Made by a program: the position numbers and the translations under genes. Under the pieces are notes generated by a model that had not been told where the DNA came from, did not search any database, and saw only the letters and a program-made list of their open reading frames with translations. Positions 1 through 29,851 of a stretch of 64,000 nt of DNA are shown here, piece by piece (position 1 is the first letter of the stretch; every line of letters starts with the position of its first letter). This DNA comes from Streptomyces sp. NBC_01317. Lineage in GTDB: Bacteria > Actinomycetota > Actinomycetes > Streptomycetales > Streptomycetaceae. Where the stretch lies: the NCBI RefSeq assembly GCF_035961655.1, contig NZ_CP108393.1:6775001-6839000 (forward strand). Direction: 5' to 3'.

Positions 1-1297
<1,297 letters not shown>

Positions 1298-1324
1298 CCC
1301 TCCGCGTACGCCCGCCAGGTGGTT

Positions 1325-1831
1325 CTACAGCGCCGCCGCCCAGTCCGCGAGCGCGTCGAAGTCCGGTCGGATCAAGCCGATCCGGGGATCGATGTGCAGC
1401 AACAGGGCGGCGGCGAGGTGTTTTTCCTCCACCCACTCGTGGTCGAACGTGGTGATGTCGTCGTCGACCCAGGCGAACGGCCGCCCCGCCGCGTACTCCA
1501 GGATGTACTGCGTCTTCCAGAAGGTCCCGCGAGGGGCCCTTCCGTGCATCTGGGGCCAGTCGATGTAGGGGAGTTCGGGCAGGCCGAGGTGCGGTCCTAT
1601 CCAGTCGTTCGCCTCGCCCTTCCAGGTGGTGGCCCAGACGAGGTCGAACCACTCGGTGAGCGCGAGCAGTTCCACGCCGTGCTCGGGGTTGAGCCAGACC
1701 CGTAGCGCCTGGGTCTCGGTCCAGCCGGACGGCCGCATGCGATGGGTGGCGTACCCGGCGGGCCGTTGGGTCGGCTTGGCCGCGTACGGATTGAGCGGTC
1801 CGTCCACGTCGATGAGCAGGAGTGGCTTCAT
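1325..1831 (-). CDS. HAD-like hydrolase-family protein (hypothetical)
   Basis: This 168-aa protein looks like a small HAD-superfamily member. The N-terminus reads LLIDVDGPLNPY, which fits motif I (DxDG). WATTWKGEA around residue 70 could supply the motif II Ser/Thr. WVDDDITTF around residue 125 fits the C-terminal acidic motif IV. I chose the ATG at 1831 because the upstream in-frame extension to 1891 is Arg/Pro-rich with no motif, whereas 1831 places motif I at residues 4-13 as usual. The substrate is unknown. It is convergent with argH and divergent from the TetR gene, so its promoter shares the 106-bp gap that holds the TetR operator. Confidence 0.7.
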   Translation of the reverse strand: MKPLLLIDVDGPLNPYAAKPTQRPAGYATHRMRPSGWTETQALRVWLNPEHGVELLALTEWFDLVWATTWKGEANDWIGPHLGLPELPYIDWPQMHGRAPRGTFWKTQYILEYAAGRPFAWVDDDITTFDHEWVEEKHLAAALLLHIDPRIGLIRPDFDALADWAAAL

Positions 1832-1898
1832 CCCACCATGATCGCGAACCGGGCCCCGCGAGGGGAAGGGGGCCCGGGGGGGAAGGGCCACCGCACGT

Positions 1899-1920
1899 GA
1901 TGAGACATTGATGTCTCATC
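1899..1920. promoter_or_regulatory. Palindromic TetR operator
   Basis: A perfect inverted repeat has 10-bp arms GATGAGACAT and ATGTCTCATC separated by TG. A further half-site, GTCTCATG, overlaps the TetR start codon at 1933-1940. The site lies just upstream of the probable -10 box, so binding would block transcription. It is presumably the autoregulatory operator of the TetR protein encoded next. Confidence 0.75.
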
Positions 1921-1925
1921 TGGGT

Positions 1926-1931
1926 TATGCT
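1926..1931 (+). promoter_or_regulatory. -10 box of the leaderless tetR-MFS promoter
   Basis: TATGCT ends 6 bases before the ATG at 1938, so transcription would start at or next to the start codon (leaderless mRNA). There is no Shine-Dalgarno sequence upstream, which agrees. The -35 region would fall inside the palindromic operator. Confidence 0.55.
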
Positions 1932-1937
1932 CGTCTC

Positions 1938-2486
1938 ATGACTGTGGACCGTGACCAGGTGCTCCGTACCGCCGCCGCCCTGCTCACCCGTAAGGCGACC
2001 GCCACCATGGACGAGGTCGCCCGCGCCGCCGGGATCGGCCGGGCGACCCTCCACCGGCACTTCGCCGGGCGGGACGCGCTGGTGAAGGCGCTGGAGGAGC
2101 TGGGCATCCAGGAGTTCGAGACGGCGCTCGACACCGCGCGGCTGGACGAGGGCGGGGCGGGTGAGGCGCTGCGCCGCCTCGTCGCGGCCGTCGAACCGGC
2201 CGCCGGGCTCCTCGCCTTCCTCGTCACCGAGAACCAGCTCTTCGAGGGCGAGGTCGACGAGGGGTGGAACCGCCTCGACGCCCGCGTCTCCGCGCTCTTC
2301 CGGCGCGGCCAGGAGGGGGGCGAGTTCCGGATCGACCTCAGTCCCGCGTGGCTGACCGAGGCGCTCTACGCGCTGATCGGGGCCTGCGCCTGGTCCATCC
2401 AGGACGGACGCGTCGCGGCCAAGGACTTCAGCTATATGACCACCGAGCTGCTGCTCGGCGGAGCACGACGGAGCACGGAGAAATGA
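1938..2486 (+). CDS. TetR/AcrR family transcriptional regulator
   Basis: This 182-aa repressor has an N-terminal TetR helix-turn-helix. RTAAALLTRKATATMDEVA leads into AGIGRATLHRHFAGRDAL (about residues 9-50), the typical TetR recognition helix and following turn. The C-terminal half is the variable ligand-binding and dimerisation domain. The ATG at 1938 is preferred over the upstream in-frame ATGs at 1908/1911 because the latter sit in the operator and the -10 box. The gene overlaps the MFS exporter start by ATGA, so the two form an operon. The likely role is local repression of the exporter until a drug-like ligand binds; the ligand is unknown. Confidence 0.88.
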   Translation: MTVDRDQVLRTAAALLTRKATATMDEVARAAGIGRATLHRHFAGRDALVKALEELGIQEFETALDTARLDEGGAGEALRRLVAAVEPAAGLLAFLVTENQLFEGEVDEGWNRLDARVSALFRRGQEGGEFRIDLSPAWLTEALYALIGACAWSIQDGRVAAKDFSYMTTELLLGGARRSTEK

Positions 2487-4033
2487 CCACCACCACCCAC
2501 CAGTTGACGAGCCCGGCCGGTCCGGCGAAACCGGGCGGGCCGCTGTCCCGCGCGGCCCGGTGGGTCGCGCTGGCCGTGCTGGTCCTCGCCGTCCTGCTCG
2601 TGGCCGTCGACGCGACGGTCCTCGGCCTCGCCACGCCGTTCCTCAGCGAGGATCTCCGGCCCACCGGCACGCAGTTGCTCTGGATCGGCGACGTCTACTC
2701 GTTTGTCATCGCCGGTCTCCTCGTCTCGATGGGCAGCCTCGGCGACCGCATCGGGCGGAAGAAGCTCCTGCTGATCGGAGCGACCGCGTTCGGCGGTGTC
2801 TCCGTACTGACCGCGTACGCGTCGAGCCCGGAGATGATGATCGCGGCTCGGGCCCTGCTCGGCGTGGCCGGCGCGACCCTGATGCCGGCCACCCTCGCGC
2901 TGATCCGCAACATCTTCCCCGACCCGAGGGAGCGCAGCCTGGCCGTCGGCGTCTGGGGCGCGACGGCGTCGGCCGGCGCCGCCGTCGGGCCCGTGGTGGG
3001 CGGCTTCCTGCTGGAGCACTTCTGGTGGGGCTCGGTCTTCCTGATCAACCTGCCCGTGATGGCGGTCCTGGTGGTCGTCGGGGTCAGACTGCTGCCCGAG
3101 TCCAAGGACCCGTCCCCGGGCCCCTGGGACCTGACCAGCGTGGTGCTGTCCCTGGTCGGTGTGATCGGGGTGGTGTACGCGGTGAAGGAGACGGCCGCGC
3201 ACGGGATACGCGGGGAGGCCGCGGCGGCCGGTCTGGTCGGCGCCGCCGCGCTCTTCTGGTTCGTACGGCGCCAACTCACCCTGCCGAAGCCCCTGCTGGA
3301 CATGCGGCTCTTCCGCAGCCGGGGCTTCTCGGGGGCGGTGCTGGCGGACCTGCTGACCATCCTGGGCCTGTCGGGCCTGGTGTTCTTCCTGTCGCAGTTC
3401 CTGCAACTGGTCCAGGGACGCGCCCCGTTGGAGGCGGGCCTGGCGGAACTGCCCGCCGCCGTGGGCGCGGTGGGCGCCGGCCTGCTGGCGGGTGTGCTGG
3501 CCCGCCGGTACTCGGTACGGTCCGCGGTGGCGGGCGGCCTCGCGGCGATCGGACTGGCACTGGCGGCCCTGACCGGGCTCAGCCAGTCCACGGGCTATCC
3601 GGTGCTGGGCGCGGTGCTGCTGGTCGTGGGCGTCGGCGCGGGCCTCTCCTTCACGGTCACGGCCGACGTCATCCTCGCGGGCGTCCCGAAGGAACAGGCG
3701 GGCGCGGCCTCGGCGGTGTCCGAAACGGCGTACGAACTGGGCGCGGCGCTGGGGATCGCGCTGCTCGGCTCGATCGTCACGGGCGTCTACCGCGACTTCG
3801 CCACCCCGCCCGGGGTACCGGCGGACGCGGCGAGGGCCGCACACGAGTCCCTGGGCGGCGCGTCGGACGCGGCGTCCACCCTCCCTCCCACCCACGCCAC
3901 GGCACTGGTGGGAGCGGCCCAGGACGCGTTCACGGAGGGCATGCGCCTGGCGGCGGGCGCGGGCGCGGTGGTACTGCTGGCCGCGTCGGTGGCGGCGTTC
4001 TTCCTGCTGCGCGGCGAGAAGCTGGACGGCTGA
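2483..4033 (+). CDS. MFS drug exporter, DHA2 (14-TM) family
   Basis: This 516-aa membrane transporter probably expels hydrophobic or cationic compounds by proton antiport. After a hydrophilic 28-residue N-terminus the protein is mostly hydrophobic helices. MFS motif A appears as GDRIGRKK (around residue 87) and the antiporter motif C as GPVVGGF (around residue 170). Its length and SmvA/QacA-like layout suggest 14 membrane segments. The ATG at 2483 overlaps the tetR stop (ATGA), giving translational coupling. The long upstream extension of the same frame is the shadow of tetR and is not used. Substrate not predictable. Confidence 0.9.
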   Translation: MTTTTHQLTSPAGPAKPGGPLSRAARWVALAVLVLAVLLVAVDATVLGLATPFLSEDLRPTGTQLLWIGDVYSFVIAGLLVSMGSLGDRIGRKKLLLIGATAFGGVSVLTAYASSPEMMIAARALLGVAGATLMPATLALIRNIFPDPRERSLAVGVWGATASAGAAVGPVVGGFLLEHFWWGSVFLINLPVMAVLVVVGVRLLPESKDPSPGPWDLTSVVLSLVGVIGVVYAVKETAAHGIRGEAAAAGLVGAAALFWFVRRQLTLPKPLLDMRLFRSRGFSGAVLADLLTILGLSGLVFFLSQFLQLVQGRAPLEAGLAELPAAVGAVGAGLLAGVLARRYSVRSAVAGGLAAIGLALAALTGLSQSTGYPVLGAVLLVVGVGAGLSFTVTADVILAGVPKEQAGAASAVSETAYELGAALGIALLGSIVTGVYRDFATPPGVPADAARAAHESLGGASDAASTLPPTHATALVGAAQDAFTEGMRLAAGAGAVVLLAASVAAFFLLRGEKLDG

Positions 4034-4124
4034 CACGAACGCCCCGTTCAGGTGACGGTGCCGAACCCGGTCGAGGGGGCGTCCTCGGCCGGGACCGGAA
4101 TGGCCACGCCAGTCCCGGCGGGCG

Positions 4125-4243
4125 GTTCCGTCCTCAAACGCCGGACGGGCTGGGCGTCGCGGGCCGGACGTCACTTCGCCGAATTCGGCCCGGGTCCGGG
4201 GCAGCCGGGTCCCTCCAGCCCGTCCGGCGCTTGAGGACGGAAC
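4125..4243. repeat. Long imperfect inverted repeat, Streptomyces intergenic repeat element
   Basis: Arms at 4125-4153 and 4215-4243 are complementary over 29 bases with one mismatch and a 61-base loop. They carry the motif CCCGTCCGGCG-TTGAGGACGG. The element fills the space between the convergent MFS and acyltransferase genes (4034-4359), where I see no gene. Related copies are at about 50574-50595 and, degenerate, 34282-34300. It could act as a bidirectional terminator. Confidence 0.7.
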
Positions 4244-4359
4244 CGGCACGCCGAAGGTTCGCGGCGCCCCCCACCCGTACCCGTACACCGCCCAGCGTGG
4301 GCACACGCCGGACGGCCACCCCGGGCACGGGGCGACCACCCCCCACCCCACAGACGCGG

Positions 4360-5031
4360 CTACGCCGCCTTCGCCTTGCTCGCGTACATGTCCACGTACT
4401 CCTGCCCCGACAGCGCCATGACCTCCGCCATCACCGAGTCCGTCACCGCCCGCAGCACGTACCGGTGGCGGTCCATGCCCTCGTACCGGGAGAACTCCAT
4501 CGGCTTCCCGAAGCGGACCGTCACCTTGCCGGAGCGCGGCATGCCCTTGCCGTCGGGCTGGAGCTTGTCCGTGCCGATCATCGCGAACGGCACCACCGGC
4601 GCCCCCGTCTCCAGGGTCAGCCGCGCGATGCCCGTACGGCCCCGGTACAGCCGGCCGTCGGGGGAGCGGGTGCCCTCCGGGTAGATGCCGAAGATCTTGC
4701 CCTCGTCCAGCAGCCGGCGCCCCGTCATCAGCGCCGCCACCCCGCCGTGCCCGCCGTCGCGGTCCACCGGGATCATGCCGACGCCGGTGAAGAACCACGC
4801 CATCAGCCGGCCCTTGAAGCCCTTGCCCGTGACGTACTCGTCCTTCCCGATGAAGAACACCTGCCGGTCACAGACCAGCGGAAGGATCATCGAGTCGATG
4901 AACGTCAGGTGGTTGCCCGCGAGGATCACGGGCCCGCTCGCGGGAATGTGCTCGGCGCCCTCCACGCGGGTACGGAACATCAGGCGCACGAGCGGGCCGA
5001 GCACTGCCTTGATGAGCGCGAAGCGGGACAA
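4360..5031 (-). CDS. 1-acyl-sn-glycerol-3-phosphate acyltransferase (PlsC family)
   Basis: This is probably a 223-aa membrane-associated acyltransferase that adds an acyl chain to lysophosphatidate or a related lysolipid. It has the acyltransferase motif NHLTFID (HX4D) and the substrate motif YPEGTRS, plus GMIPVDRDGG and PVVPFAMIG typical of PlsC proteins. I chose the TTG at 5031 because GGAGGA lies just upstream and the protein then begins (M)SRFALIK. A GTG at 5097 would add 22 residues, but a probable -10 box (TATCGT) lies inside that extension. It is divergent from the glycerophosphodiesterase gene. The acceptor could also be another lysolipid. Confidence 0.85.
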   Translation of the reverse strand: MSRFALIKAVLGPLVRLMFRTRVEGAEHIPASGPVILAGNHLTFIDSMILPLVCDRQVFFIGKDEYVTGKGFKGRLMAWFFTGVGMIPVDRDGGHGGVAALMTGRRLLDEGKIFGIYPEGTRSPDGRLYRGRTGIARLTLETGAPVVPFAMIGTDKLQPDGKGMPRSGKVTVRFGKPMEFSRYEGMDRHRYVLRAVTDSVMAEVMALSGQEYVDMYASKAKAA

Positions 5032-5284
5032 CAGGTCCTCCGGCGTCGTGGATGGTCTCCGTGCAGGTGAGGACGATACTCGCGGGTCACGGGTCACCGC
5101 ACGTCGGGTTCATCGACTCGATACCCAGTGTTGACGTGAGTTCGCGTCACGTTTGTGTGCCATCTGCCGTACGGAGGGGAGAAAAGCCTACGCTCGGGCC
5201 CCGTCGGACAGGTCTTGACAGGTGCGGGACATCAGGGACACCACCTCCGGGGGAACATTCCCGGGAACACACCAAGGAGCGTTC

Positions 5285-6439
5285 ATGACACAGGGTGCGC
5301 GGCACACGCCCGGACGGCGGACCGTACTGGGAGCGGCGGTGCTCGGCTCGGCGGCCCTGGCACTGCCCACGGCGGCGGCCACGGCGGCCCAGGCCACCGA
5401 GCGCGGCCACGGCTCGTCCGGCGCGGAACTGCCCGTCCCGACGATCGTCGGCCACCGCGGTTCCAGCGGCTACCGGCCCGAGCACACCCTCGGCTCGTAC
5501 CAGCTCGCCCTCGACCTCGGCGCGCACGTGATCGAGCAGGACCTGGTCCCCACCAAGGACGGCCACCTGATCTGCCGTCACGAGAACGACATCACGGCCA
5601 CGACCGACGTCTCCGACCACCCGGAGTTCGCCGGCCGCAGGACCACCAAGGTGGTCGACGGCACGAGCATCACCGGCTGGTTCACCGAGGATTTCACACT
5701 CGCCGAGATCAAGACGCTCCGCGCGAAGGAGCGCATCCCGGCCGTCCGCCAGCGCAACACCCTGTACGACGGCCACTGGGAGATCCCCACCTTCGAAGAG
5801 GTCCTGCGCTGGGCCGACGCCGAGGGCCGCCGCCGGGGCCGTCCCGTCTGGCTGTACGTCGAGACCAAGCACCCCACGTACTTCCGGGGCATCGGCCTCG
5901 CCCTGGAGGACCGCCTCGCGAAGCTCCTGCGCCGGTACGGGCGGGACCGCAAGGAGTCCCCGCTGCTGCTCCAGTCCTTCGAGCCGAGCAGCATGCAGAA
6001 GATGGCGAAGCTGGTCGGCACGCGGCGCGTGGTCCTGCTCGACGCGGCCGCGACGCGCCCCTGGGACTTCCGGGTCGCCAACGACCCCCGTACGGTCGCC
6101 GACCTCGTCACCCCCACCGGGCTCAAGTGGATCGCGTCCTTCGCGCAGGGCATCGGCCCGACGCTGGACCTGATCATCCCCAGGGACGCCACGGGCAAGC
6201 TCGGCACGCCGACGACGCTGGTACGGGACGCGCACGCGAAGCACCTGATCCTGCACCCGTACACGATGCGCAACGAGAACGCGTTCCTGCCGGCCGACTT
6301 CCGGCGCGGCACGGACCCGAACGCGTACGGCGACGCCTTCGGCGCCTTCCAGGTCTGGTTCGAGCAGGGCATCGACGGCATCTTCACCGACAACCCGGAC
6401 ACGGGCCTGCTGGCCCGCGAGGACTTCCTCGCCCGCTGA
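5285..6439 (+). CDS. glpQ: Glycerophosphodiester phosphodiesterase, Tat-exported
   Basis: This 384-aa enzyme probably hydrolyses deacylated phospholipid glycerophosphodiesters to glycerol-3-phosphate and an alcohol outside the cell. The N-terminus carries a twin-arginine signal (GRRTVLGAAVLG then an Ala-rich stretch). The GDPD domain starts with IVGHRGSSGYRPEHT (around residues 55-70), followed by E-Q-D acidic metal ligands and H in LICRHEND. The ATG at 5285 follows AAGGAG at 5274-5279; the in-frame ATG at 5222 would bury the signal peptide. The 3' end is convergent with the P450 and shares a 15-bp hairpin. The symbol reflects the family name. Confidence 0.9.
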   Translation: MTQGARHTPGRRTVLGAAVLGSAALALPTAAATAAQATERGHGSSGAELPVPTIVGHRGSSGYRPEHTLGSYQLALDLGAHVIEQDLVPTKDGHLICRHENDITATTDVSDHPEFAGRRTTKVVDGTSITGWFTEDFTLAEIKTLRAKERIPAVRQRNTLYDGHWEIPTFEEVLRWADAEGRRRGRPVWLYVETKHPTYFRGIGLALEDRLAKLLRRYGRDRKESPLLLQSFEPSSMQKMAKLVGTRRVVLLDAAATRPWDFRVANDPRTVADLVTPTGLKWIASFAQGIGPTLDLIIPRDATGKLGTPTTLVRDAHAKHLILHPYTMRNENAFLPADFRRGTDPNAYGDAFGAFQVWFEQGIDGIFTDNPDTGLLAREDFLAR

Positions 6440-6455
6440 CCCGCCCGCCGACCCG

Positions 6456-6490
6456 GTAGGCGCCGGGTGGTTCCCCCACCCGGCGCCTAC
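6456..6490. terminator. Bidirectional hairpin terminator between glpQ and the P450
   Basis: Perfect 15-bp arms (6456-6470 and 6476-6490) with loop TTCCC lie just after the glpQ stop and overlap the P450 stop codon. There is no U-run, as is common in Streptomyces. Confidence 0.75.
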
Positions 6491-7761
6491 GCGGTCGGCA
6501 GGAAGCGGGCCCTGAGGCCCGCGGGAGCCAGCCGGTCGACGAACTCCGGCGCCACCGAAGCGGCGTTCGGTGACTCGATGGTGAAACGGTGCGCCAGCCG
6601 CGAGGTGGCCAGCGTCAGCTGCCGCATGGTCAGCGCGGCGCCCAGGCAGACCCGCGGTCCGGCGCCGAACGGGAGGTAGGCCGGTCCGGGCGCCGCCCGC
6701 CCGTCCAGCCACCGGCCGGGCTCGAAATCGTCGGGCCGGGGCCACCACCGGGGGTCCCGGTGGATCAGGTACGGATTGAGCAGCACGTCGTCGCCGGGGT
6801 CGAGCGGCCAGTCGCCCAGGGCGGTCGCGGTACGGGCGGTACGGGTCATCAGCCACGCGGGCGGATACAGCCGGAGCGTCTCCCGGACCACGGCCTCGGC
6901 CAGCGGGGTCCCGCCGTTAGCCGGCCCGCTCGCCTCGTCGCGCAGGTCGCCCACGAGCCCGGGGCGCCGGGCCAGTTCCCACACGACGGAGGTGAGGGCG
7001 GCGGCGGGGACGCCGTGGCCGCCCATCAGGACGCTGTGCAGCGTGGACACCACGGCGTCGGTGGACGGGGCCGGTTCGGCGGTGAGGAGAAAGCCGAGCA
7101 GGTCGTTCCGGGGCGCGTCGGAATTCTCCGCGCCCCGCTCCCGGACCAGGCCGGTCAGCGTCTCGGCCAGGCGCCGGTAGGTCCGGAAGAAACGGCGGTG
7201 GCGGGGGAGCGGCAGCCACGCGGGGAACTCGCGCGACGATTCCGCGAAGGGCTGGGTGGCGCGGACGGTCTCGTGGAGCAGCCCGGGAATGCCGGCGGAG
7301 TCCGCGCCGAAGCAGTACGCGGCGATCGTCCGGGCGGTGAGCGTCCGCATCATGGTGAGGACGTCGACGTCACGGCCGGCCCCGTCGGCGACGACCGCGT
7401 CGAGGGTCGTGGCGGTCAGGTCGTCGGTGGTGGCCGCCGCCGTCCGGTTGAGCCCCGGCCACGCGGACCTGCGGTCGGACATCCACGCCATGGCGTGTGC
7501 GGAGGCCTGGTCGAGATCCCGCCGCATGTCGAAAGGCGCCAACTCGGTCACGAAGGAGTCGCCGGTGCGGGTGAGTGCCTCGTGGGCGAGTTCCGGGTCG
7601 ATGACGAACCACGTGTGGTCGTCGTAGGAGAAGACGTCACCGTACTGACGGTGGCAGCGCCGCAGGAAGCCGATCCGGTCGGCCTCGTACGCCCGGGTGT
7701 TGCCCCTCAGCCAGTGCCCGCGCGGCCCTGGCGGCCGTCCGGGCTTCTCGCGCTGCGCCAT
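6487..7761 (-). CDS. Cytochrome P450, candidate RiPP-crosslinking enzyme
   Basis: This is a 424-aa soluble P450. The K-helix ExxR is ETLR (294-297) and the heme loop is FGAGPRVCLG (365-374) with Cys372 as axial ligand. The I-helix segment reads MGGHGVP (246-252): the usual acid-alcohol pair of the AGxDT motif is replaced by Gly250-Val251. Upstream on the same strand, 75 bp away, is a 29-aa open frame with an aromatic C-terminus. That pairing is the hallmark of P450-only RiPP clusters (biarylitides, cittilin, atropopeptides), so the likely role is oxidative cross-linking of aromatic side chains of that peptide. GGGAGG precedes the ATG. No ferredoxin gene is adjacent. It could instead be an orphan P450 acting on a small molecule. 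Confidence 0.9.
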   Translation of the reverse strand: MAQREKPGRPPGPRGHWLRGNTRAYEADRIGFLRRCHRQYGDVFSYDDHTWFVIDPELAHEALTRTGDSFVTELAPFDMRRDLDQASAHAMAWMSDRRSAWPGLNRTAAATTDDLTATTLDAVVADGAGRDVDVLTMMRTLTARTIAAYCFGADSAGIPGLLHETVRATQPFAESSREFPAWLPLPRHRRFFRTYRRLAETLTGLVRERGAENSDAPRNDLLGFLLTAEPAPSTDAVVSTLHSVLMGGHGVPAAALTSVVWELARRPGLVGDLRDEASGPANGGTPLAEAVVRETLRLYPPAWLMTRTARTATALGDWPLDPGDDVLLNPYLIHRDPRWWPRPDDFEPGRWLDGRAAPGPAYLPFGAGPRVCLGAALTMRQLTLATSRLAHRFTIESPNAASVAPEFVDRLAPAGLRARFLPTA

Positions 7762-7778
7762 GAGCCCTCCCGAAGTGA

Positions 7779-7810
7779 ATCGCGGGACCCCTCGTGAGGG
7801 ATCCCGCGAT
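7779..7810. terminator. Hairpin between the RiPP precursor and the P450 gene
   Basis: Arms 7779-7792 and 7797-7810 pair in 13 of 14 positions around a 4-base loop. The hairpin lies in the 75-bp gap between the peptide gene stop and the P450 start. Such an attenuating terminator would give more precursor than enzyme transcript, as in many RiPP operons. Confidence 0.6.
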
Positions 7811-7836
7811 CGGCGTTCCGCGCTGAGCCGGTCGGG

Positions 7837-7926
7837 CTACCGAGTGTGGTAGGGCCAGTAGATGTAGCGTCCGCTGACCCGCTTGCGGCCCACCAGGTGA
7901 GCCACCAGGCGCCGTGTCCGTTTCAT
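7837..7926 (-). CDS. Putative P450-modified RiPP precursor peptide (29 aa)
   Basis: This short frame (ATG at 7926, TAG at 7837-7839) was read by eye and is too short for normal gene callers. The leader is strongly basic (KRTRR at 2-6, GRKR at 13-16, SGR at 18-20). The C-terminus is YIYWPYHTR (21-29): three Tyr, one Trp and one His within seven residues. GAGGTG stands five bases before the ATG. A P450 gene follows on the same strand after a hairpin. The arrangement matches P450-only RiPPs, where one P450 couples aromatic residues of a very short precursor; as I recall, the cittilin core is YIYY, which shares YIY. Which residues form the final core, and how the leader is removed, cannot be seen. 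No protease or exporter gene is adjacent. Confidence 0.75.
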   Translation of the reverse strand: MKRTRRLVAHLVGRKRVSGRYIYWPYHTR

Positions 7927-8000
7927 GAACACCTCACTGCCATCAGGGCGAATAGTTTTTCGATCGTGACACGGACTTTTGCATCCGGCAATATCGCCTC

Positions 8001-8144
8001 ATGACTACCGATGCCCCGCTCACCCGAGAGCCGTTCCGGCGCGGATACGCGGCCCGGGACAGGGACGAGAAGTGGTCGGGGAGGAGTGATCTTCCCTCGG
8101 GTGCGGTGGAGCACCGTGTGATCGGAATGCGTTCCGGGTCGTGA
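8001..8144 (+). CDS. Small leaderless open frame, unknown (47 aa)
   Basis: A 47-codon frame begins MTTDAPLTREPF and ends with TGA at 8142-8144. Upstream is a plausible promoter: GTGACA (7966-7971), a 17-base spacer, and CAATAT (7989-7994), which ends six bases before the ATG, so the transcript would be leaderless. The composition is charged with no signal, membrane segment or cysteine. I do not recognise it. It is divergent from the putative peptide precursor and upstream of the sigma-like gene. It could be a decayed fragment or chance; confidence is low. The rest of 7927-8253 shows nothing further. Confidence 0.3.
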   Translation: MTTDAPLTREPFRRGYAARDRDEKWSGRSDLPSGAVEHRVIGMRSGS

Positions 8145-8253
8145 GTTCCCGGCGGCCGGCGCCCCCGTCAGCCGCGCGCCCCGGCGTGCCCCGGTCGGGT
8201 GACAGCCCCGCCGGGGAGCAACCGGCGGTGCGCGCGCGTACGTCCCGCGCAGC

Positions 8254-8796
8254 ATGAAGACCGCCGACGCGGCCCCCGGCCGCGAAGACCTTTTCCACGC
8301 CCTGCGGCCGCTCGTCGCCGCCGAGGCCAGGGCCGAGGCGCCCGGCGCCGCCGTCGAGGCGCGCGACCTCGAACAGGCCGTGTGGGTACGGCTGCTGGAG
8401 CGGATGGCGGGGGAGGGGCCGCCTCCCGACACCGTCCGCTGGGTTCGTACCGCCGTACGCGCCGAGGCGCGGCACGGCCGCCGTACCGCCGCCCACGAAC
8501 TCCCCTACACCCGCGCCCAGCCCGCCGCCGGCGCCGACTCCGACCCCGAGCGCGCGGCACTCCGTGCCGACCGGAAGCGTGCACTCCGCTCCGCCGTGGG
8601 CCGTACACCTGGGCGCTGCCCCCGCCTGCTGGCTGCGATGCTGTCGCCCGACGACCCCACCTACCGCGAAATCGCAGGAGAGTTGGGTATCTCACAGGGG
8701 AGTTTAGGGCCGATGCGTTCCCGATGCCTGGGATGCCTGCGAAGAATGCTCACACCGGAGATTGGCACCGCTGAACTTGGGGGAAAGAGGCGGTAG
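8254..8796 (+). CDS. Sigma-70-like (ECF-type) regulator with a TTA codon
   Basis: This 180-aa protein resembles a compact ECF sigma factor. ARDLEQAVWVRLLERM followed by VRWVRTAVRAEARHGRR resembles sigma region 2, and YREIAGELGISQGSLGPMRSRCLGCLRRML (split here in meaning: helix-turn-helix from residue about 130) resembles region 4. Leu150-151 in GSLGP is encoded by TTA at 8704-8706, the rare codon read by the bldA tRNA, so translation may be tied to development. No anti-sigma gene adjoins it. A GNAT gene follows 37 bp downstream on the same strand and is probably co-transcribed. Targets are unknown; it may be a sigma-like DNA-binding protein rather than a true sigma factor. Confidence 0.7.
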   Translation: MKTADAAPGREDLFHALRPLVAAEARAEAPGAAVEARDLEQAVWVRLLERMAGEGPPPDTVRWVRTAVRAEARHGRRTAAHELPYTRAQPAAGADSDPERAALRADRKRALRSAVGRTPGRCPRLLAAMLSPDDPTYREIAGELGISQGSLGPMRSRCLGCLRRMLTPEIGTAELGGKRR

Positions 8797-8833
8797 ACAA
8801 TCGGCGTACCAGGTGAGCGGGAGGCATGCACAC

Positions 8834-9337
8834 ATGGGCATGAGCGTGACCATCTCTGCGGCGAGTGCGCAGGACGCGGAACAGATCCTGAAGCTGCAAT
8901 ATCTGTGTTACCAGAACGAGGCCGAGCTCTACGGCGACTACACCATCGAGCCGCTCACCCAGACCCTGGACGACCTGAGGGCCGAACTCGACCGGGGGCA
9001 CGGCCTGGTGGCCCGCCTCGGCGACGAAGTGGTGGCATCGGTACGTGGCACGGTCGACGCGTCCGGCACCGCGCGGATCGCCAAACTCATCGTCCACCCG
9101 CGTCTCCAGCGCCACGGCCTCGGCGGCCGGCTGCTCGACGCCATAGAACTGCACTTCGCGGCCGAACCGGCCGCGCGGCGCTTCCGGCTCTTCACGGGCC
9201 ACCGCAGCGAGGGCAATCTGAGGCTCTACCGGAGCCGGGGCTACGCGCCGGTCTCGGCGGAGCAGATCGGCCCGCGCCTGCGCCTCGTGACGCTGGAGAA
9301 GGAGGCCGCCGCCGAGGTGTACGTCGCGAGCGCCTGA
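8834..9337 (+). CDS. GNAT family N-acetyltransferase
   Basis: This 167-aa protein has the GNAT fold. IAKLIVHPRLQRHGLGGRLLDAIE is the acetyl-CoA-binding motif A (Q/R-x-x-G-x-G/A as QRHGLG), and EGNLRLYRSRGYAP is the typical beta6-7 region with the N...YxxxGF pattern. The ATG at 8834 follows a GGGAGG element with 9-base spacing; ATG 8840 is also possible. It lies 37 bp after the sigma-like gene. The acceptor substrate is unknown. Confidence 0.85.
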   Translation: MGMSVTISAASAQDAEQILKLQYLCYQNEAELYGDYTIEPLTQTLDDLRAELDRGHGLVARLGDEVVASVRGTVDASGTARIAKLIVHPRLQRHGLGGRLLDAIELHFAAEPAARRFRLFTGHRSEGNLRLYRSRGYAPVSAEQIGPRLRLVTLEKEAAAEVYVASA

Positions 9338-9394
9338 CCCCGGGGGCCGACGTCCTGAGAGCGGCGCGGCCACCCGCGGAAGGCTGTTACGGAT

Positions 9395-9859
9395 CTACGA
9401 CGCGAGAGCGGAATCCCCGCCGGTACGGGGGGATTCCGCGACCCGCGGCCTGCGCAGCCACAGGATCCCCGTGACCGGCAGCAGCACGGGAATGAACAGG
9501 TACCCCATGCCGAAGGACGACCACACCGTGGAGTCCGCGAACGCGGAGGAGTCGGCGAGCGTCCACACCCCGACGGTCAGCACCCCCACCAACTCCGCCC
9601 CGCAGCACACCAGCGCGACCTTCCGCGCCGTCTCCCCGCCCCGTACGAGCGTGTAGGTGATGAAGACGTACACCACGGCCGCGACGGCCGACAGCAGATA
9701 CGCCAGCGAGGCCCGGTCGTACTCGGTCGCGATCTGGTAGACCGAGCGGGACACCGCGCCCACCGTCATCACGCCGTAGAGCCAGACCAGCAACAGGCCG
9801 GGGCCCTTGACGAGCCTGGTCCGTGTCTCCGGCTCGGGCTGTGTCCTCATGGTCTTCAT
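9395..9859 (-). CDS. Integral membrane protein, 4 predicted TM helices
   Basis: This 154-aa protein of unknown function has hydrophobic segments at about residues 20-38, 52-72, 80-100 and 115-135 and a charged C-terminal tail. Homologous-looking proteins are common in Streptomyces (recalled). It starts three bases after the stop of the next membrane-protein gene, so the two are certainly co-transcribed and may form a complex. An 11-bp perfect inverted repeat (9408-9418/9429-9439) inside its 3' end may terminate transcription from the convergent GNAT gene. Confidence 0.75.
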   Translation of the reverse strand: MKTMRTQPEPETRTRLVKGPGLLLVWLYGVMTVGAVSRSVYQIATEYDRASLAYLLSAVAAVVYVFITYTLVRGGETARKVALVCCGAELVGVLTVGVWTLADSSAFADSTVWSSFGMGYLFIPVLLPVTGILWLRRPRVAESPRTGGDSALAS

Positions 9860-9862
9860 GGT

Positions 9863-10222
9863 TCAGCCACCCCAGATGTCGTGGAGCCGTACTTCGAGCA
9901 CGGCCAGGACGACCGCCCCGGCCGACACCGTCACCGAACCCCAGCGGGTCCGCTCGGTCAGGGACAGGAAGCCGGCGGCGGGCACCGCGAGCAGGGCCCC
10001 GAGCAGGTACGAGAAGAACAGCACCGAGCCGTCGGAGGCCCGTTCCCCGCGCCCCACCAGCACGATCCCGACCACCACCTGGATCAGCGCCAGCGCCGAC
10101 ACCACGGCCATGCCGATGAAGTGCCAGTCCTTGGTCGGCTGGTCCCGGTACGCGGCGAAACCGCACCAGGCGGCGAGGGCGAGCGCGGCCACGGAGACCG
10201 CGACCGTCAGGGCGACAAGCAT
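9863..10222 (-). CDS. Small integral membrane protein
   Basis: This 119-aa protein has four hydrophobic helices (about residues 3-22, 36-56, 62-84, 95-112), ending HDIWGG. I chose the ATG at 10222 because the protein then starts directly with the first membrane helix (MLVALTVAVSVAA); the open extension to 10312 is Arg/Gly-rich and looks non-coding. It is the first gene of a two-gene membrane-protein operon with the gene at 9395-9859 and is divergent from the HAD phosphatase. Function unknown. Confidence 0.7.
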   Translation of the reverse strand: MLVALTVAVSVAALALAAWCGFAAYRDQPTKDWHFIGMAVVSALALIQVVVGIVLVGRGERASDGSVLFFSYLLGALLAVPAAGFLSLTERTRWGSVTVSAGAVVLAVLEVRLHDIWGG

Positions 10223-10338
10223 GGGCCCGAGCGTATTACGGCGGAATGACCGGCCCGCGCGCGCCCCCGGCCGTCCCCCGCGGTCACCCCGGCGCGCACC
10301 CCCGGACGCCACGTACTGTCCCCTTCATGAGGAGTGAC

Positions 10339-10986
10339 ATGAGGATCGACGCCGAAGCCCTGCTGTTCGACAACGACGGGACACTCGTCTCCTCCCTGGA
10401 GTCCGTCCTGCGCTGCTGGGGCCGTTGGGTGGAGGAGTACGGCATCACGGCGGACGCCTTCGCGCGGTACGGGCTGCACGGCCGCCCCGCCGCCGAGATC
10501 GTGGCCGACCTGGTCCCCGCCGCACAGGTGCCGGCCGCCGTCGCCCGTATCGAACAGCTGGAGATCGACGACGCCGCCGGCGGTGTCGTCCTGGTGCCGG
10601 GCGCGGCCGGCCTGCTCGCCTCCCTGCCCGGCGAACGCTGGGCCGTCGTCACCTCCGCCTCCCGGCGGCTCGCGGACGCCCGCCTCGGCGCGGCCGGGCT
10701 GCGTCCCAAGACGCTGGTCACGGCGGACGACGTCACCCGTGGCAAGCCCGACCCCGAACCGTTCCTGCTCGCCGCCCGGCTCCTCGGCGTGGACCCGGCC
10801 CGCTGCCTGGTCTTCGAGGACGCGCCCGCCGGGCTCACGGCCGCCCGGGCCGCCGGTATGCGGACCGTGGCCTTGGCCACAACCCACCTCCACGCCGAAC
10901 TGGTCGCCGACGCGGTCGTCGACGACCTCTCCGCCGTGTCGGCCCAGGTCACGGCCGGGGGAGTGGAGATCCGTATCGCCGGCTGA
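10339..10986 (+). CDS. HAD-superfamily phosphatase (beta-phosphoglucomutase/sugar-phosphatase type)
   Basis: This 215-aa protein has the classical HAD motifs. Motif I is LLFDNDGTLVSS, with both catalytic aspartates in DNDGT. Motif II is AVVTSASRR. Motif III is GKPDPEPFLLAA (Lys). Motif IV is CLVFEDAPAGLTAARAAGM. The alpha-helical cap of about 70 residues after motif I marks subfamily IA. The sequence most resembles the YfbT/GPP sugar-phosphatases. The ATG at 10339 has AGGAG five bases upstream; the ATG at 10327 overlaps that site. The cytosolic phosphate-ester substrate is not predictable. Confidence 0.85.
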   Translation: MRIDAEALLFDNDGTLVSSLESVLRCWGRWVEEYGITADAFARYGLHGRPAAEIVADLVPAAQVPAAVARIEQLEIDDAAGGVVLVPGAAGLLASLPGERWAVVTSASRRLADARLGAAGLRPKTLVTADDVTRGKPDPEPFLLAARLLGVDPARCLVFEDAPAGLTAARAAGMRTVALATTHLHAELVADAVVDDLSAVSAQVTAGGVEIRIAG

Positions 10987-11065
10987 GACCGGCCCCCGAC
11001 CCGCGCCGCCGCTCAGAGGGCGTCCGCATGCTGCGACGGAGGAGTCCGCTATGCGGACGGCCCCC

Positions 11066-11093
11066 TTGGCAAAGTACTGACGTCTGCTTTACT
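11066..11093 (+). promoter_or_regulatory. Promoter of the metNIQ leader peptide
   Basis: A -35 box TTGGCA (11066-11071), a 16-base spacer and a -10 box TTTACT (11088-11093) lie immediately upstream. The ATG of the leader peptide at 11100 is six bases after the -10 box, so the transcript is probably leaderless. Confidence 0.65.
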
Positions 11094-11099
11094 TACCGC

Positions 11100-11186
11100 A
11101 TGACCAGGACGAGCTACCGCGCCCCCGCGACCGAGGCGATCACGACGCCCGGTGCTCGTTGTCTGTGTCGAATGTGCGCCAACTGA
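11100..11186 (+). CDS. Cysteine-rich leader peptide upstream of metNIQ (28 aa)
   Basis: This 28-codon frame starts MTRTSYRAP and ends RCLCRMCAN before TGA. Three Cys codons fall within six residues near the end. It sits on the promoter of a methionine ABC transporter operon, 283 bases before metN, so the obvious reading is a translated attenuator that senses Cys-tRNA (sulfur amino acid supply). Actinobacterial Cys-containing leader peptides upstream of sulfur genes are established. A small hairpin (11202-11221) follows the stop. The remaining 250 bases before metN contain C-rich simple sequence (11389-11417) and no other gene. The mechanism is inferred. Confidence 0.65.
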   Translation: MTRTSYRAPATEAITTPGARCLCRMCAN

Positions 11187-11469
11187 GGGCCCCTGCCTGA
11201 GCCTCGCGCCCCGAAGCGAGGACAACAGCCGCGCCGTTTCCCGTACCACCTGAGGGCCTTCCCGGGCCCCCACGGTTGTGTACGGACCGCGCACGCCCCC
11301 CGCACACGCCGCCTCCCGGTCACCCACCGCATCGGCCGTGCCGTGTCGCCCTGAGCTGTGCCCACGCCCACCCCCCGTCTCCCTGACCCATGCCCATGCC
11401 CCTGCCCCCTGCCCATGCCTCGCGCCGGCGGATCCTCCGCCGCGCCCCCGACTGTGACGGAACCCCCCT

Positions 11470-12516
11470 GTGATCACTACTACGGGCCTGACGAAGGTCT
11501 ACCGGTCCGCCCGCGGGCGCGGCCGGGAGATCACCGCGCTCGACGGTGTCGACCTCCACGTCCGCGAGGGTGAGGTCTTCGGTGTCGTCGGACAGAGCGG
11601 CGCCGGAAAATCCTCACTCATCCGCTGCGTCAACCTCCTCGAACGCCCCACCTCCGGCACCGTGACCGTCGCGGGCCAGGACCTCACCGCGCTCGCGGGC
11701 CGGGGCCACCGGGCCGGCAAGGAGCTGCGCCGGGCCCGCAGTTCGATCGGCATGGTCTTCCAGCACTTCAACCTGCTGTCCTCCCGCACGGTCGAGGACA
11801 ACGTCGAACTGCCCCTGGAAATCCTCGGCGTCCCCGCCCGCGAACGCACCCGCCGCGCCCTCGAACTCCTCGACCTGGTAGGCCTCGCCGACAAGGCCAA
11901 GGCCTACCCCGCGCAGCTCTCCGGCGGCCAGAAGCAGCGGGTCGGCATCGCCCGCGCCCTGGCGGGCGACCCCAAGGTGCTGCTCTCCGACGAGGCGACC
12001 AGCGCCCTCGACCCCGAGACCACCCGCTCGATCCTCCAGCTGCTGCGCGACCTCAACCGCCAACTCGGCCTCACCGTGCTGCTCATCACCCACGAGATGG
12101 AGGTCGTGAAGACGATCTGCGACTCGGCCGCGCTGATGCGCGCGGGCAGGATCGTCGAGTCGGGGACGGTGAGCGAACTGCTCGCCACCCCGGGCTCCGA
12201 GCTGGCCCGTGAGCTGTTCCCGGTGGCGGGAGACGCCTCGGGCCCCGGCCGTACGGTCGTCGACGTCACCTTCCAGGGCGAGGCCGCCACGCGGCCGGTG
12301 ATCTCCCAGCTCTCCCGTACGTACAACATCGACATCTCGATCCTCGGCGCGGCGATGGACACCGTCGGCGGCCGGCAGATCGGCCGGATGCGGATCGAAC
12401 TGCCCGGCGCGTACGAGGAGAACGTCGTCCCGGTCGGCTTCCTGCGCGAGCAGGGGCTCCAGGTCGAGATCGTCGGCGCTCCCGACCCCGGTCTCACCAA
12501 GGAAGGTGCCAAGTGA
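11470..12516 (+). CDS. metN: Methionine ABC transporter ATP-binding protein
   Basis: This 348-aa ATPase powers uptake of D/L-methionine. It has Walker A GQSGAGKS (about residues 40-47), Q-loop VFQHFN, signature LSGGQKQR, Walker B VLLSDEATS and the H-loop THE. The final 90 residues are the NIL regulatory domain, which in MetN proteins binds methionine and inhibits transport. The GTG start at 11470 has only a weak ribosome site, consistent with control from the upstream leader. The TGA overlaps the metI GTG by 4 bp. Confidence 0.95.
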   Translation: MITTTGLTKVYRSARGRGREITALDGVDLHVREGEVFGVVGQSGAGKSSLIRCVNLLERPTSGTVTVAGQDLTALAGRGHRAGKELRRARSSIGMVFQHFNLLSSRTVEDNVELPLEILGVPARERTRRALELLDLVGLADKAKAYPAQLSGGQKQRVGIARALAGDPKVLLSDEATSALDPETTRSILQLLRDLNRQLGLTVLLITHEMEVVKTICDSAALMRAGRIVESGTVSELLATPGSELARELFPVAGDASGPGRTVVDVTFQGEAATRPVISQLSRTYNIDISILGAAMDTVGGRQIGRMRIELPGAYEENVVPVGFLREQGLQVEIVGAPDPGLTKEGAK

Positions 12517-13181
12517 CCTGGTCCGAGATGCAGCCCCTGCTGTCCCAGGGGACCGTCGACACCCTCTACATGGTGCTGTGGTCCGGGCTCGTCACCGTCG
12601 CCGGCGGACTGCCCCTCGGCATCCTGCTGGTCCTCACCGACAAGGGCGGACTGCTCCAGAACGCCCCGGTGAACAAGGTCGTCGGTGTGATCGTGAACAT
12701 CGGCCGCTCGCTGCCGTTCATCATCCTGCTGATCGCCCTGATCCCCTTCACCACCTTCGTGGTCGGCACCTTCATCGGCCCGACCGCCATGATCGTGCCG
12801 CTGGCGATCGGCGCCATCCCGTTCTTCGCCCGCCTGGTCGAGACCGCGATCCGCGAGGTCGACCACGGACTGGTCGAAGCCGTCCAGGCCATGGGCGGCT
12901 CCATCCCCACCATCGTCCGCAAGGTCCTGCTGCCGCAGGCCCTGCCGTCGATCGTCTCCGGGACCACCACCACCGTCATCGCACTCATCGGCTACTCGGC
13001 GATGGCCGGGGCGGTGGGAGGCGAAGGCCTCGGTTCCAAGGCCGTCACGTACGGATTCCAGCGCTTCGAGAACGGCTTCATGATCGCCACCGTCGTGGTG
13101 CTGGTCCTGATCGTCACCGTGATCCAGCTGATCGGCGACCTGGCCGTACGACTGCTGGCGCGCCGGGTCCGTACCGCGTAG
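12513..13181 (+). CDS. metI: Methionine ABC transporter permease
   Basis: This 222-aa inner-membrane protein forms the methionine channel with MetN and MetQ. It has five hydrophobic segments and the BPD-transporter EAA loop (EAVQAMGGSIPTIVRKVLLP) that docks on the ATPase, at about residues 115-145. The GTG start overlaps the metN stop (GTGA), indicating translational coupling. Confidence 0.95.
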   Translation: MTWSEMQPLLSQGTVDTLYMVLWSGLVTVAGGLPLGILLVLTDKGGLLQNAPVNKVVGVIVNIGRSLPFIILLIALIPFTTFVVGTFIGPTAMIVPLAIGAIPFFARLVETAIREVDHGLVEAVQAMGGSIPTIVRKVLLPQALPSIVSGTTTTVIALIGYSAMAGAVGGEGLGSKAVTYGFQRFENGFMIATVVVLVLIVTVIQLIGDLAVRLLARRVRTA

Positions 13182-13271
13182 GCCGCACAACACCACACAC
13201 CCGCACGGTCCGTCACGGCCCGCACTCCTTGTCCGGGCCTCCCCACCGCACACCGGAAAGAGGCACTCTTC

Positions 13272-14132
13272 GTGCGCACCACCATCAAGCTCACCGCCGC
13301 TGCCGCCACCGCCGCTCTCGCCCTCACCCTGAGCGCCTGCGGCACGTCGTCCGATCCGGCCCCCAAGGCCGCCGACGGCGCCAAGGCCGACGAGTCCAAG
13401 CCCCTGCTCGTCGCCGCGTCCCCGACGCCGCACGCCGACATTCTCACCTTCATCAAGAAGAACCTGGCGGCCAAGGCCGGACTCAGGCTCGACGTCAAGG
13501 AGTTCACGGACTACGTCCTGCCGAACACCGGCACCGAGAGCGGCGAGGTCGACGCCAACTACTTCCAGAACAAGCCCTATCTGGACGACTTCAACAAGAA
13601 GAACGGCACCCACATCGTGCCGGTCGTCAACGTCCACCTGGAGCCGCTCGCCCTCTACTCCAAGAAGGTCGGGGAACTGAGCGGGCTCAAGGCCGGCCAG
13701 AGCATCGCGATCCCCAACGACACCGTCAACGAGGGCCGCGCCCTCAAGCTCCTCGCCGACAACGGTGTGATCACGCTCAAGGACGGCGTCGGCGGCAGCG
13801 GTTCGCTGGCCGACATCAAGGACGACAAGGGCCTCACGTTCAAGGAACTGGAAGCCGCCACCCTGCCCCGCGCCCTCGACGACGTGGACGCCGCCGTCAT
13901 CAACGGCAACTACGCCATCGAGGCCGAGCTCAACCCCGCCCAGGACTCCATCGCCCTGGAGAAGACCGAGAACAACCCGTACGCCAACTTCCTCGCCGTG
14001 AAGGAGGGCAACGAGAAGGACCCGCGGGTGCTGAAGCTCGCGAAGCTCCTCAACTCGCCCGAGGTGAAGAAGTACATCGAGGACACCTACAAGAACGGCG
14101 CGGTCCTGCCCGCCTTCGGCCCCGCCGCGTAA
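13272..14132 (+). CDS. metQ: Methionine-binding lipoprotein
   Basis: This 286-aa protein is the extracytoplasmic methionine receptor of the MetNIQ system (NlpA/MetQ family). Its signal peptide ends with the lipobox LSAC (Cys around residue 22), so it is lipid-anchored. LLVAASPTPHADIL and the segment DANYFQNKPYLDDFN are diagnostic of MetQ. It begins 90 bp after metI and ends before a 13-bp perfect hairpin terminator. The GTG start at 13272 follows GGAAAGAGG. Confidence 0.95.
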   Translation: MRTTIKLTAAAATAALALTLSACGTSSDPAPKAADGAKADESKPLLVAASPTPHADILTFIKKNLAAKAGLRLDVKEFTDYVLPNTGTESGEVDANYFQNKPYLDDFNKKNGTHIVPVVNVHLEPLALYSKKVGELSGLKAGQSIAIPNDTVNEGRALKLLADNGVITLKDGVGGSGSLADIKDDKGLTFKELEAATLPRALDDVDAAVINGNYAIEAELNPAQDSIALEKTENNPYANFLAVKEGNEKDPRVLKLAKLLNSPEVKKYIEDTYKNGAVLPAFGPAA

Positions 14133-14171
14133 CGGGGCGCCGCCCTCCGTCCCACGCCGTCCGTTCGGCAC

Positions 14172-14204
14172 GAGCCCCGCGCACCCCGGTCGTGCGCGGG
14201 GCTC
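14172..14204 (+). terminator. metNIQ hairpin terminator
   Basis: Perfect 13-bp arms (GAGCCCCGCGCAC and its complement) around a seven-base loop, 40 bases after the metQ stop, before the next gene. Confidence 0.75.
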
Positions 14205-14256
14205 CCCCGATGCTGCATGCTGTGCATTTACGACGGACTGAGGCATGGAGCTGCGC

Positions 14257-14889
14257 ATGACTACCTTTCCGGACGTGTCCATCAGCACGGAGCGGTTGGT
14301 GCTGCGCCCCTTCGAACCGTCGGACATCCCCGCGCACGTCGAGATGATGAACGACGAGATGGTCACCGCCTGGACGTCCGTGCCCCACCCGTACACCCAG
14401 GAGGACGCCGAGCGGTGGGTCCACACCATCGCCCCCGCCGAGCGCACCGGCGGACGCGGCATCGTCTTCGCCGTCACCGAGTTCCTCACGCAGCGGCTCG
14501 TCGGCATCGTGCGGCTCCACCACACCAACTGGCGCGCCCTCGCCACCGAGGCGCAGTACGTCACCGCCCCCTGGGCGCGAGGCGAGGGGTACGCCACCGA
14601 ATCGGTGCTCGCCGTCGCCCAATGGCTGTTCCGCGACCAGAAGTTCGAGCGCATCGAGGTGCGTACGGCCGCCGACAACACCGCCTCCCAGCAGGTCGCC
14701 CAGAAGATCGGCTGCATCAGCGAGGGCGTGCTGCGCAGCGCGTGGATAGCGCGTACGCAGACCGAGGACGGCGGCTGGACGGACTTCCGCACCGACCTCC
14801 TGGTCTGGAGCCTGCTGCCCGAGGATCTGGAAGGTGTGGCGGAGCAGATGGCGGACAGCGGATACGCGTCCTTCACGGACTGGAACTGA
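14257..14889 (+). CDS. GNAT acetyltransferase, RimJ/RimL-like
   Basis: This 210-aa protein has the N-terminal ISTERLVLRPFEPSD typical of RimJ/RimL-type acetyltransferases. It also has ARGEGYATESVLAVAQWLF (acetyl-CoA motif) and VRTAADNTASQQVAQKIGC, the conserved N..S..V..K.G segment. The ATG at 14257 has GGAG six bases upstream; the ATG at 14245 would have GAGG only one base away, so I prefer 14257. It may acetylate a ribosomal protein N-terminus or a small amine. Two 16-bp tandem repeats (14909-14940) lie downstream before the next gene. Confidence 0.85.
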   Translation: MTTFPDVSISTERLVLRPFEPSDIPAHVEMMNDEMVTAWTSVPHPYTQEDAERWVHTIAPAERTGGRGIVFAVTEFLTQRLVGIVRLHHTNWRALATEAQYVTAPWARGEGYATESVLAVAQWLFRDQKFERIEVRTAADNTASQQVAQKIGCISEGVLRSAWIARTQTEDGGWTDFRTDLLVWSLLPEDLEGVAEQMADSGYASFTDWN

Positions 14890-15004
14890 CCACCGCGCGT
14901 CCTCGATCGACCCTCGCCACCACCGACCCTCGCCACCACCGACCGACGTTCACCGCCCCCGACCGACCGCCACCCGGCGACACATTCCTGGAGACTTGAA
15001 GAAG

Positions 15005-29608: not shown

Positions 29609-29657
29609 GGGACCCACATCATTACTCGCACCACTCACACATCGTGCTCATCTTGCG

Positions 29658-29847: not shown

Positions 29848-29851
29848 TTGG

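Follow-up and report, generated by a model that had tools for sequence, protein, structure and literature searches.

A Candidate P450-Only RiPP System with a Conserved Y-x-Y-W Core, Encoded in a 1.5-kb Unit of Streptomyces and Related Actinobacteria

Introduction

Several families of ribosomally made peptides whose aromatic side chains are joined by a cytochrome P450 have been described. The umbrella term "cyptides" covers the P450-made biaryl RiPPs, for which Nam et al. (2023) set out 19 novel groups of biosynthetic gene clusters (PMC12299652), with bond pairs of the types Trp-His i+3, Trp-Tyr i+3, and Tyr-Trp i+2 (PMC11002830) and 787 P450s predicted for other cyptide classes (PMC13417212). 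The cittilin cluster includes a methyltransferase alongside the 27-aa precursor CitA (PMC8708641), and biarylitides derive from a five-residue precursor with aromatic residues at positions 3 and 5 (PMC13417212). Atropopeptides, such as tryptorubin, carry a KSLK leader and a Trp at core position 2 (PMC11450843). In the aminopyruvatide system, a 66-aa precursor with a C-terminal Asp is processed with MNIO and B12 radical SAM enzymes (PMC13192836; PMC11002830), and the P450 ApyO joins the two Tyr residues of YLY in ApyA by a C-C bond, a reaction that depends on an Arg placed five residues ahead of the first Tyr (about 8% conversion remains with Lys) (PMC13192836).

The locus analyzed here lies in a window of 64,000 nt from Streptomyces sp. 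NBC_01317, whose genome of 8.07 Mb forms one contig. As judged from its genes, it quite likely encodes a minimal P450-only RiPP system in which a Y-x-Y-W core would be cross-linked. A sequence-only reading had drawn attention to a 29-codon frame with a ribosome-binding site, a basic leader, and the ending YIYWPYHTR just upstream of a P450 gene; its coordinates, strand, and translation were reproduced on re-reading, with a spacer of 75 nt between the two genes, which share a strand. The features of the locus are as follows.

6487..8004, minus strand: movable unit, maximal span of DNA in common with eight other Streptomyces loci
6487..7761, minus strand: cytochrome P450 gene, 424 aa (ATG at 7761, stop ending at 6487; Pfam p450, 5.9e-48)
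6640..6669, minus strand: heme-binding loop FGAGPRVCLG with Cys372, from alignment
7003..7023, minus strand: I-helix segment GGHGVPA, residues 247-253 ([AG]GxETT in most compared P450s)
7778..7811, minus strand: intergenic hairpin with a 15-bp stem in the precursor-P450 spacer, from folding and covariation across nine Streptomyces loci
7837..7926, minus strand: precursor peptide gene, 29 codons, MKRTRRLVAHLVGRKRVSGRYIYWPYHTR (ATG at 7926, stop at 7837-7839)
7840..7866, minus strand: putative precursor core, residues 21-29, YIYWPYHTR, from a 21-row alignment and a predicted cleavage site
7867..7926, minus strand: basic precursor leader, residues 1-20, from the same alignment, with a predicted leader/core border
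7932..7935, minus strand: ribosome-binding GAGG, 5 nt before the precursor ATG
7961..7995, minus strand: upstream block GATATTGCC-n12-CCGTGnCACGATCG in the window's form (changed in others), from alignment of nine loci

Comparison with Described Systems

The cittilin system (CitA/CitB of Myxococcus) resembles the locus in its short precursor (27 vs. 29 aa), in a C-terminal YIY followed by an aromatic residue, and in a single P450 encoded directly downstream. The cittilin core YIYY stands at the very C-terminus, however, whereas further residues follow YxYW in all 21 aligned precursors of the window's family; the leader also differs, and the I helix of the cittilin-type P450s contains ETT or GTT. 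Among frames of at least 90 aa within 6 kb at 21 loci, no methyltransferase was found to travel with the unit. Aminopyruvatide shares the YxY core and, at the same spacing as the Arg of ApyA, a basic residue five positions before the first Tyr (R16 before Y21), but the window's precursor is 29 aa long and ends in Arg, no MNIO was present among the 15 window proteins encoded at 62-16225 (Pfam), and a B12 radical SAM enzyme was not seen with the window's unit.

Atropopeptides are likewise encoded in Streptomyces by a unit of two genes, one for a small precursor and one for a P450. The KSLK motif, present in 8/8 fetched tryptorubin-type loci, occurs in none of the 21 aligned YxYW-family precursors, and Trp at core position 2 is found in a single row (L022, YWYW) if the core is taken as starting at YxYW; the heme loop of the atropopeptide P450s is FGHxxx[RH]CWG-like, in contrast to FGAGPRVCLG in the window. 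The window's P450 falls outside the atropopeptide class, which forms a very long, separate branch and yields short alignments. Biarylitides share the P450-only organization and an aromatic core, but have an MxYxH-like five-residue precursor rather than one of 29 residues.

The conserved small precursor beside a P450 is a feature of the cyptide umbrella, under which the family fits as far as gene content goes, with a biaryl cross-link as the predicted modification. Unlike the bond pairs reported by Nam et al., a YxYW core offers Tyr-Tyr i+2 and Tyr-Trp i+1 or i+3. There is roughly an even chance that the family is one of the 19 groups of Nam et al. The literature matches listed for YxYW-type core strings contained no paper on such a peptide, and the product is very probably a cyclic, cross-linked peptide unlike any of the products compared.

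Evidence for the Precursor Gene

With the P450 as query, 79 loci were taken from the genome collection, corresponding to the best 80 of 571 confirmed stretches, and were divided into close loci (at least 41% identity; n = 23: L006-L026, L030, and L072) and distant loci (at most 38% identity; n = 56). In every close locus, a homologous small frame on the strand of the P450 match precedes it by 8-128 nt. When a single filter was applied to both groups (a frame of 20-90 aa with Y-x-Y-W within its last 14 residues, in 1.2 kb of upstream DNA on both strands), such a frame was recovered at 23/23 close vs. 0/56 distant loci, three of the latter offering less upstream DNA (L042, 734 nt; L049, 282 nt; L044, 75 nt); a looser scan of the 56 distant loci gave unrelated aromatic-tailed frames in eight.

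The same association holds across genomes. The P450 was detected at E<=1e-90 in 7/392 genus genomes, and a profile built from the 21 aligned precursors matched nine of the 392, of which the seven at E<=1e-10 are the seven P450 genomes, with precursor and P450 adjoining by coordinates in all of them; identical seven-member sets would arise by chance with a probability of 4e-15, assuming that genomes are independent. The remaining two matches (E 0.0015 and 0.005) lie within frames of 836 and 549 aa and are therefore counted as chance. Among 396 phylum genomes, the precursor profile matched the host's own genome strongly and nine others weakly (all E>1e-3). A protein search with the window's P450 returned 1144 matches at E<=1e-20 among 7995 candidates scored; in the best 120, which were listed, the closest named relatives are from Streptomyces (95% to about 70% identity), followed by Micromonosporaceae and then by Nonomuraea and kin.

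The small frame also evolves as a protein, as is evident from the codon positions (6, 5, and 17 variable sites at positions 1, 2, and 3) and from dN<dS in 28/28 pairs among eight ungapped Streptomyces copies; the copy at L087, which has lost its Pro codon, was excluded from both counts. The sequence-only reading had named a broken or unconserved frame beside a conserved P450 as the finding that would speak against it. The opposite was observed, as frame and P450 occupy the same 7/392 genomes and the frame is under selection at the protein level, and by these sequence criteria the small frame is a real gene.

Alignment of the C-termini of the homologues, which the earlier reading had called for, reveals a shared Y-x-Y-W behind a conserved leader. 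R5, G13, G19, Y21, Y23, and W24 are invariant in the 21 aligned precursors, and R16 is kept in 20 (Gln in L015). Two branches can be distinguished. Branch I (15/21 rows, from Streptomyces, Micromonosporaceae, Nonomuraea, and kin) follows the pattern [VI]SG[RK]-Y[IPS]YW-[PF]-Y-tail, with Y26 in all 15 rows and tails of HTR, HAR, QLR, HHR, NYx, HYE, HHGK, HGGE, or HGGGK. Branch II (six rows: Saccharopolyspora, Kribbella, a strain labelled Streptomyces sp. SID13031, two Nonomuraea, and Amorphoplanes) reads RMGG[FLM]YxYW with a tail that lacks Y26 (Phe at this position in 3/6); the precursor of one genus genome (L091) also has the branch II form. WPYH with its TR tail had been suggested as the mark of a new scaffold; W24 is indeed kept, and W-x-Y recurs within branch I alone, but the His and the TR tail vary while Y21, Y23, and W24 are fixed, so that the signature is better written Y-x-Y-W.

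Natural cores include YIYWPYHTR, YPYWPYQLR, YSYWPYHHR, YPYWFYNYx, YIYWPYHHGK, YTYWIIAN, YWYWDISN, and YIYWYHAR. The last of these, in which the Pro codon is lost, is encoded at L087:1340-1426 beside a P450 that is 79% identical to that of the window.

Kinship of the P450

Reference P450s were sought through the precursor cores of cittilin and tryptorubin. Frames ending in SAPYIYY and spanning 27 aa from the ATG were located in 4/58 genomes of one myxobacterial family (L125-L128), three of them with a P450 behind the frame in the stretch fetched; given the core YIYY and the length of 27, these are taken to be cittilin-like precursors. Tryptorubin-type loci (KSLK...AWYIWY) were present in 8/179 genus genomes. 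A strict biarylitide pattern with a ribosome site matched none of the same 179 genomes, and the tree accordingly contains no biarylitide P450.

That the system might be of the cittilin type, with Y-x-Y-W as the Trp form of Y-I-Y-Y and the enzyme as a distant CitB, is suggested by the likeness of the cores (YIYW vs. YIYY), by the 27-aa cittilin-like frames with a P450 behind 3/4, and by the P450 comparison itself, in which the cittilin-type enzymes score highest of the RiPP P450s compared, aligning with the window's P450 over their full length at 31% identity and 164-199 bits, vs. 135 and 117 bits for the best other P450s of the host genome. Placement of the YxYW-family and cittilin-type P450s in one clade is, moreover, not rejected by the AU test (p-AU 0.152). 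The best tree, however, sets the YxYW-family P450s apart from both the cittilin-type and the atropopeptide P450s; the I helix of the cittilin-type P450s reads GHETT (two) or GHGTT (one), no common leader motif was seen, and no methyltransferase was found to travel with the unit among the neighboring frames compared. A cittilin-type origin is considered unlikely, and the YxYW-family P450s are likely separate from CitB.

In this tree of 73 sequences, branch I (21 rows, 97/100), branch II (nine rows, 100/99), and two unplaced rows form one group (89/91, not starred), and the family groups with no P450 of known product. The seven atropopeptide P450s align with the window's P450 over only 89-103 aa (66-75 bits); given the great length of their branch, its joining to the YxYW-family group may be false. 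A match to the ApyO family model was considered as proof of kinship and set aside: the window's P450 reaches 141-143 bits, far below the cut-off of 525, and two other host-genome P450s score more (199.6 and 180.6 vs. 141.4 bits), which marks the model as unspecific. In a profile search of the PDB, no RiPP P450 was recognized by name among the best 60 of 559 rows. The predicted structure of the enzyme is mediocre (mean pLDDT 70.3), and the best 50 Foldseek rows obtained with it are general P450s, CYP184A1 first.

An Altered I Helix

The heme loop and ExxR motif of the window's P450 are normal. Its I helix is not of the usual form: in an alignment of 32 family P450s, this segment reads G-[VIS]-P in 32/32. 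Across a wider set comprising the window and 120 homologues, the I-helix acid is absent from all 120 ungapped sequences, 113 of which also lack the neighboring Ser/Thr (Ser is present in seven). By comparison, 22/22 "far" P450s in the tree alignment retain the acid followed by Thr or Ser, and the acid is present in eight of nine other P450s of the host genome, with Thr next in six of the eight; the exceptions are L113 (Glu-Ala), L123 (Glu-Pro), and L122, in which the acid is missing. The acid-Thr pair is also absent from the seven atropopeptide P450s.

In typical P450s the acid-threonine pair delivers protons for oxygen activation (D251/T252 in P450cam). The P450s that cross-link glycopeptides are thought to use two one-electron oxidations (PMC9023744). 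Loss of the acid would suit aromatic coupling of this kind without proving it, since L122 likewise lacks the acid and 2/3 cittilin-type P450s have it. The pattern also bears on the reading that the product is a RiPP whose core is hydroxylated or otherwise oxidized rather than cross-linked, a precedent for which lies in the P450s described as hydroxylating and nitrating RiPPs (PMC13192836; PMC12186263). Loss of the acid in every one of the 120 sequences, mostly together with the Ser/Thr, stands against such chemistry, as does the invariant Y-x-Y-W spacing, and oxidation without a cross-link is regarded as improbable; coupling of the aromatic side chains is the preferred reading.

The Hairpin and the Upstream Block

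The 75-nt spacer between the two genes folds with a z of -2.95 into the hairpin listed above. In nine Streptomyces loci, 5/15 of its pairs change on both sides and five never vary, and 95.5% of hairpin cells are paired, compared with 34-55% in slid controls; 0/500 shuffles reach four of the five hairpin measures, and 205/500 reach the fifth (further pair types). Two further Streptomycetaceae spacers gave z -4.5 (L010) and -1.4 (L009). In other genera, z is -2 or lower at L013, L015, L022, L025, and L072 and weaker at L014 and L021, the spacers of L012 and L024 are no more stable than shuffled sequences, and at L016-L020 only 8-26 nt separate the frame from the P450 match, too few for such a hairpin.

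A Tyr/Trp-rich small frame, a strong covarying hairpin, and an enzyme gene, in that order, resemble the attenuators of the trp type, and the frame could in principle be a regulatory leader peptide at whose Tyr/Trp codons ribosomes stall so that the hairpin attenuates the P450, the peptide being no substrate at all. Several observations make this very unlikely. The leader half of the peptide contains as many invariant residues (R5, G13, and G19) as the tail (Y21, Y23, and W24), and purifying selection acts on the frame; no T run accompanies the hairpin, the short gaps at L016-L020 leave no space for it, the spacers of L012 and L024 are shuffle-like in their folding, and the one minimum-energy fold of 7762-7965 that was computed keeps the hairpin and has no clear antiterminator. 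In the reading preferred here, the hairpin would set the ratio of precursor to enzyme.

Upstream of the precursor, the ribosome-binding stretch has the form G[AG]GG in the alignment of nine Streptomyces loci, and the conserved block at 7961-7995 is likely a promoter/operator, judging from its alignment. Scans of 6400-8300 for consensus sigma-70 promoters and for terminators returned nothing, and Rfam gave no match at the unit, its six matches in the window being tRNAs at other positions. Four tRNA genes stand in a row at 29537-29922 on the minus strand, three of them scoring almost equally.

A Movable Unit and Its Surroundings

The upstream block, precursor, hairpin, and P450 together make up 1.5 kb that is shared as a unit. 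Sixteen kb of the window, in which the unit has 8 kb of upstream and 6.5 kb of downstream flank, were compared with eight distinct Streptomyces loci, one of which (L010) is labelled Streptomycetaceae and one of which (L006) has an upstream flank of only about 1.2 kb; L149-L151 repeat L009, L008, and L010. The shared DNA forms one block per locus, with its left edge at 8004-7974 in seven loci and at 7939 in L010 and its right edge at 6487-6506, and the flanks of the unit have no match at E<=1e-10 in the eight loci. No obvious repeat was apparent at the edges on inspection.

In the window, the unit is flanked by the genes for a glycerophosphodiester phosphodiesterase and an ECF-sigma-like protein. 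Three Streptomyces relatives (with one copy compared in G002) have, within a few hundred nt of the phosphodiesterase gene, either the sigma-like gene (two) or an acetyltransferase gene (one) that is the next one along in the window, and no P450 match was found at the phosphodiesterase site in these three; in a fourth relative, from another family, the phosphodiesterase alone is kept. Given the unmatched flanks and the absence of the unit from this site in relatives, the unit is gained and lost in one piece, or moves in one piece. It was not seen to carry a mobility gene, and the plasmid collection contained no match to the unit at E<=1e-60. The interval at 6440-8253 of the window holds the unit and about 250 nt of further DNA to which no feature is assigned (8005-8253), and in two relatives the flanking genes are only about 100-200 nt apart. 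The ECF-sigma-like protein, encoded at 8254-8796, scores 39.9 bits against TIGR02937 (cut-off 42.9) and has no Pfam match; its gene adjoins the phosphodiesterase gene in two relatives.

Clustering of neighboring frames of at least 90 aa within 6 kb of 21 loci (some with short flanks), which passes over smaller genes, revealed no gene that keeps a fixed position from genus to genus. One neighbor cluster comprises five loci at scattered distances, a second P450 recurs in three loci, the others among the 25 printed comprise two loci each, and L016 and L017, both Nonomuraea, have a common neighborhood. The earlier proposal of a P450-only system is supported: composition, leader, and enzyme fit it, and no other steady neighbor was found. 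A second related P450-like frame lies downstream of the P450 in three loci from two genera (L007, +2958; L016, +1552; L017, +2767), probably by chance.

Proposed Mechanism

In the model favored here, the two genes would be transcribed from a shared promoter, and the precursor would be made in excess over the P450, with the intergenic hairpin having a damping or protective role. The basic leader, which carries an R-x-x-G-x element five residues ahead of the core's first Tyr, would dock on the P450, and the enzyme, lacking the I-helix acid and threonine, would abstract hydrogen atoms from phenol and indole without inserting oxygen, thereby coupling the aromatic side chains of Y21-I-Y23-W24. By analogy with ApyO, which joins the Tyr pair of YLY and for which the Arg spacing is alike, the first bond would most likely be Y21-Y23, as in aminopyruvatide YLY and in the YIY part of cittilin. 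W24 would probably enter a second ring, for which Y26 is a further possible partner in branch I; as branch II lacks Y26, a ring through this residue would not be general. Release of the product might fall to a housekeeping protease cutting near the junction of SGR and YIYW, which is a guess, and branch II has no basic residue at the proposed site.

A broader interpretation can be offered tentatively, at less than even odds: the family may represent a separate lineage of RiPP P450s with a G-x-P I helix, making bicyclic Tyr-Tyr-Trp scaffolds with a new set of bonds and encoded by a mobile 1.5-kb unit that has no mobility gene. Equally tentative is the corollary that the core of the larger branch is Y-x-Y-W-x-Y and that the unit has spread between actinobacteria.

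Concluding Remarks

Cyclic peptides made by P450s are prized as compact, stable scaffolds, and their enzymes as biocatalysts. The natural core variants of this two-gene family provide a ready set for identifying which residues are joined, and the core at L087, which lacks Pro, is a ready test of ring spacing. The G-x-P I helix likewise permits a direct test of how such enzymes would couple aromatic rings in the absence of the usual proton-relay pair. Finally, as a movable unit of 1.5 kb, the locus offers a clean case in which to follow the spread of a minimal biosynthetic pathway.
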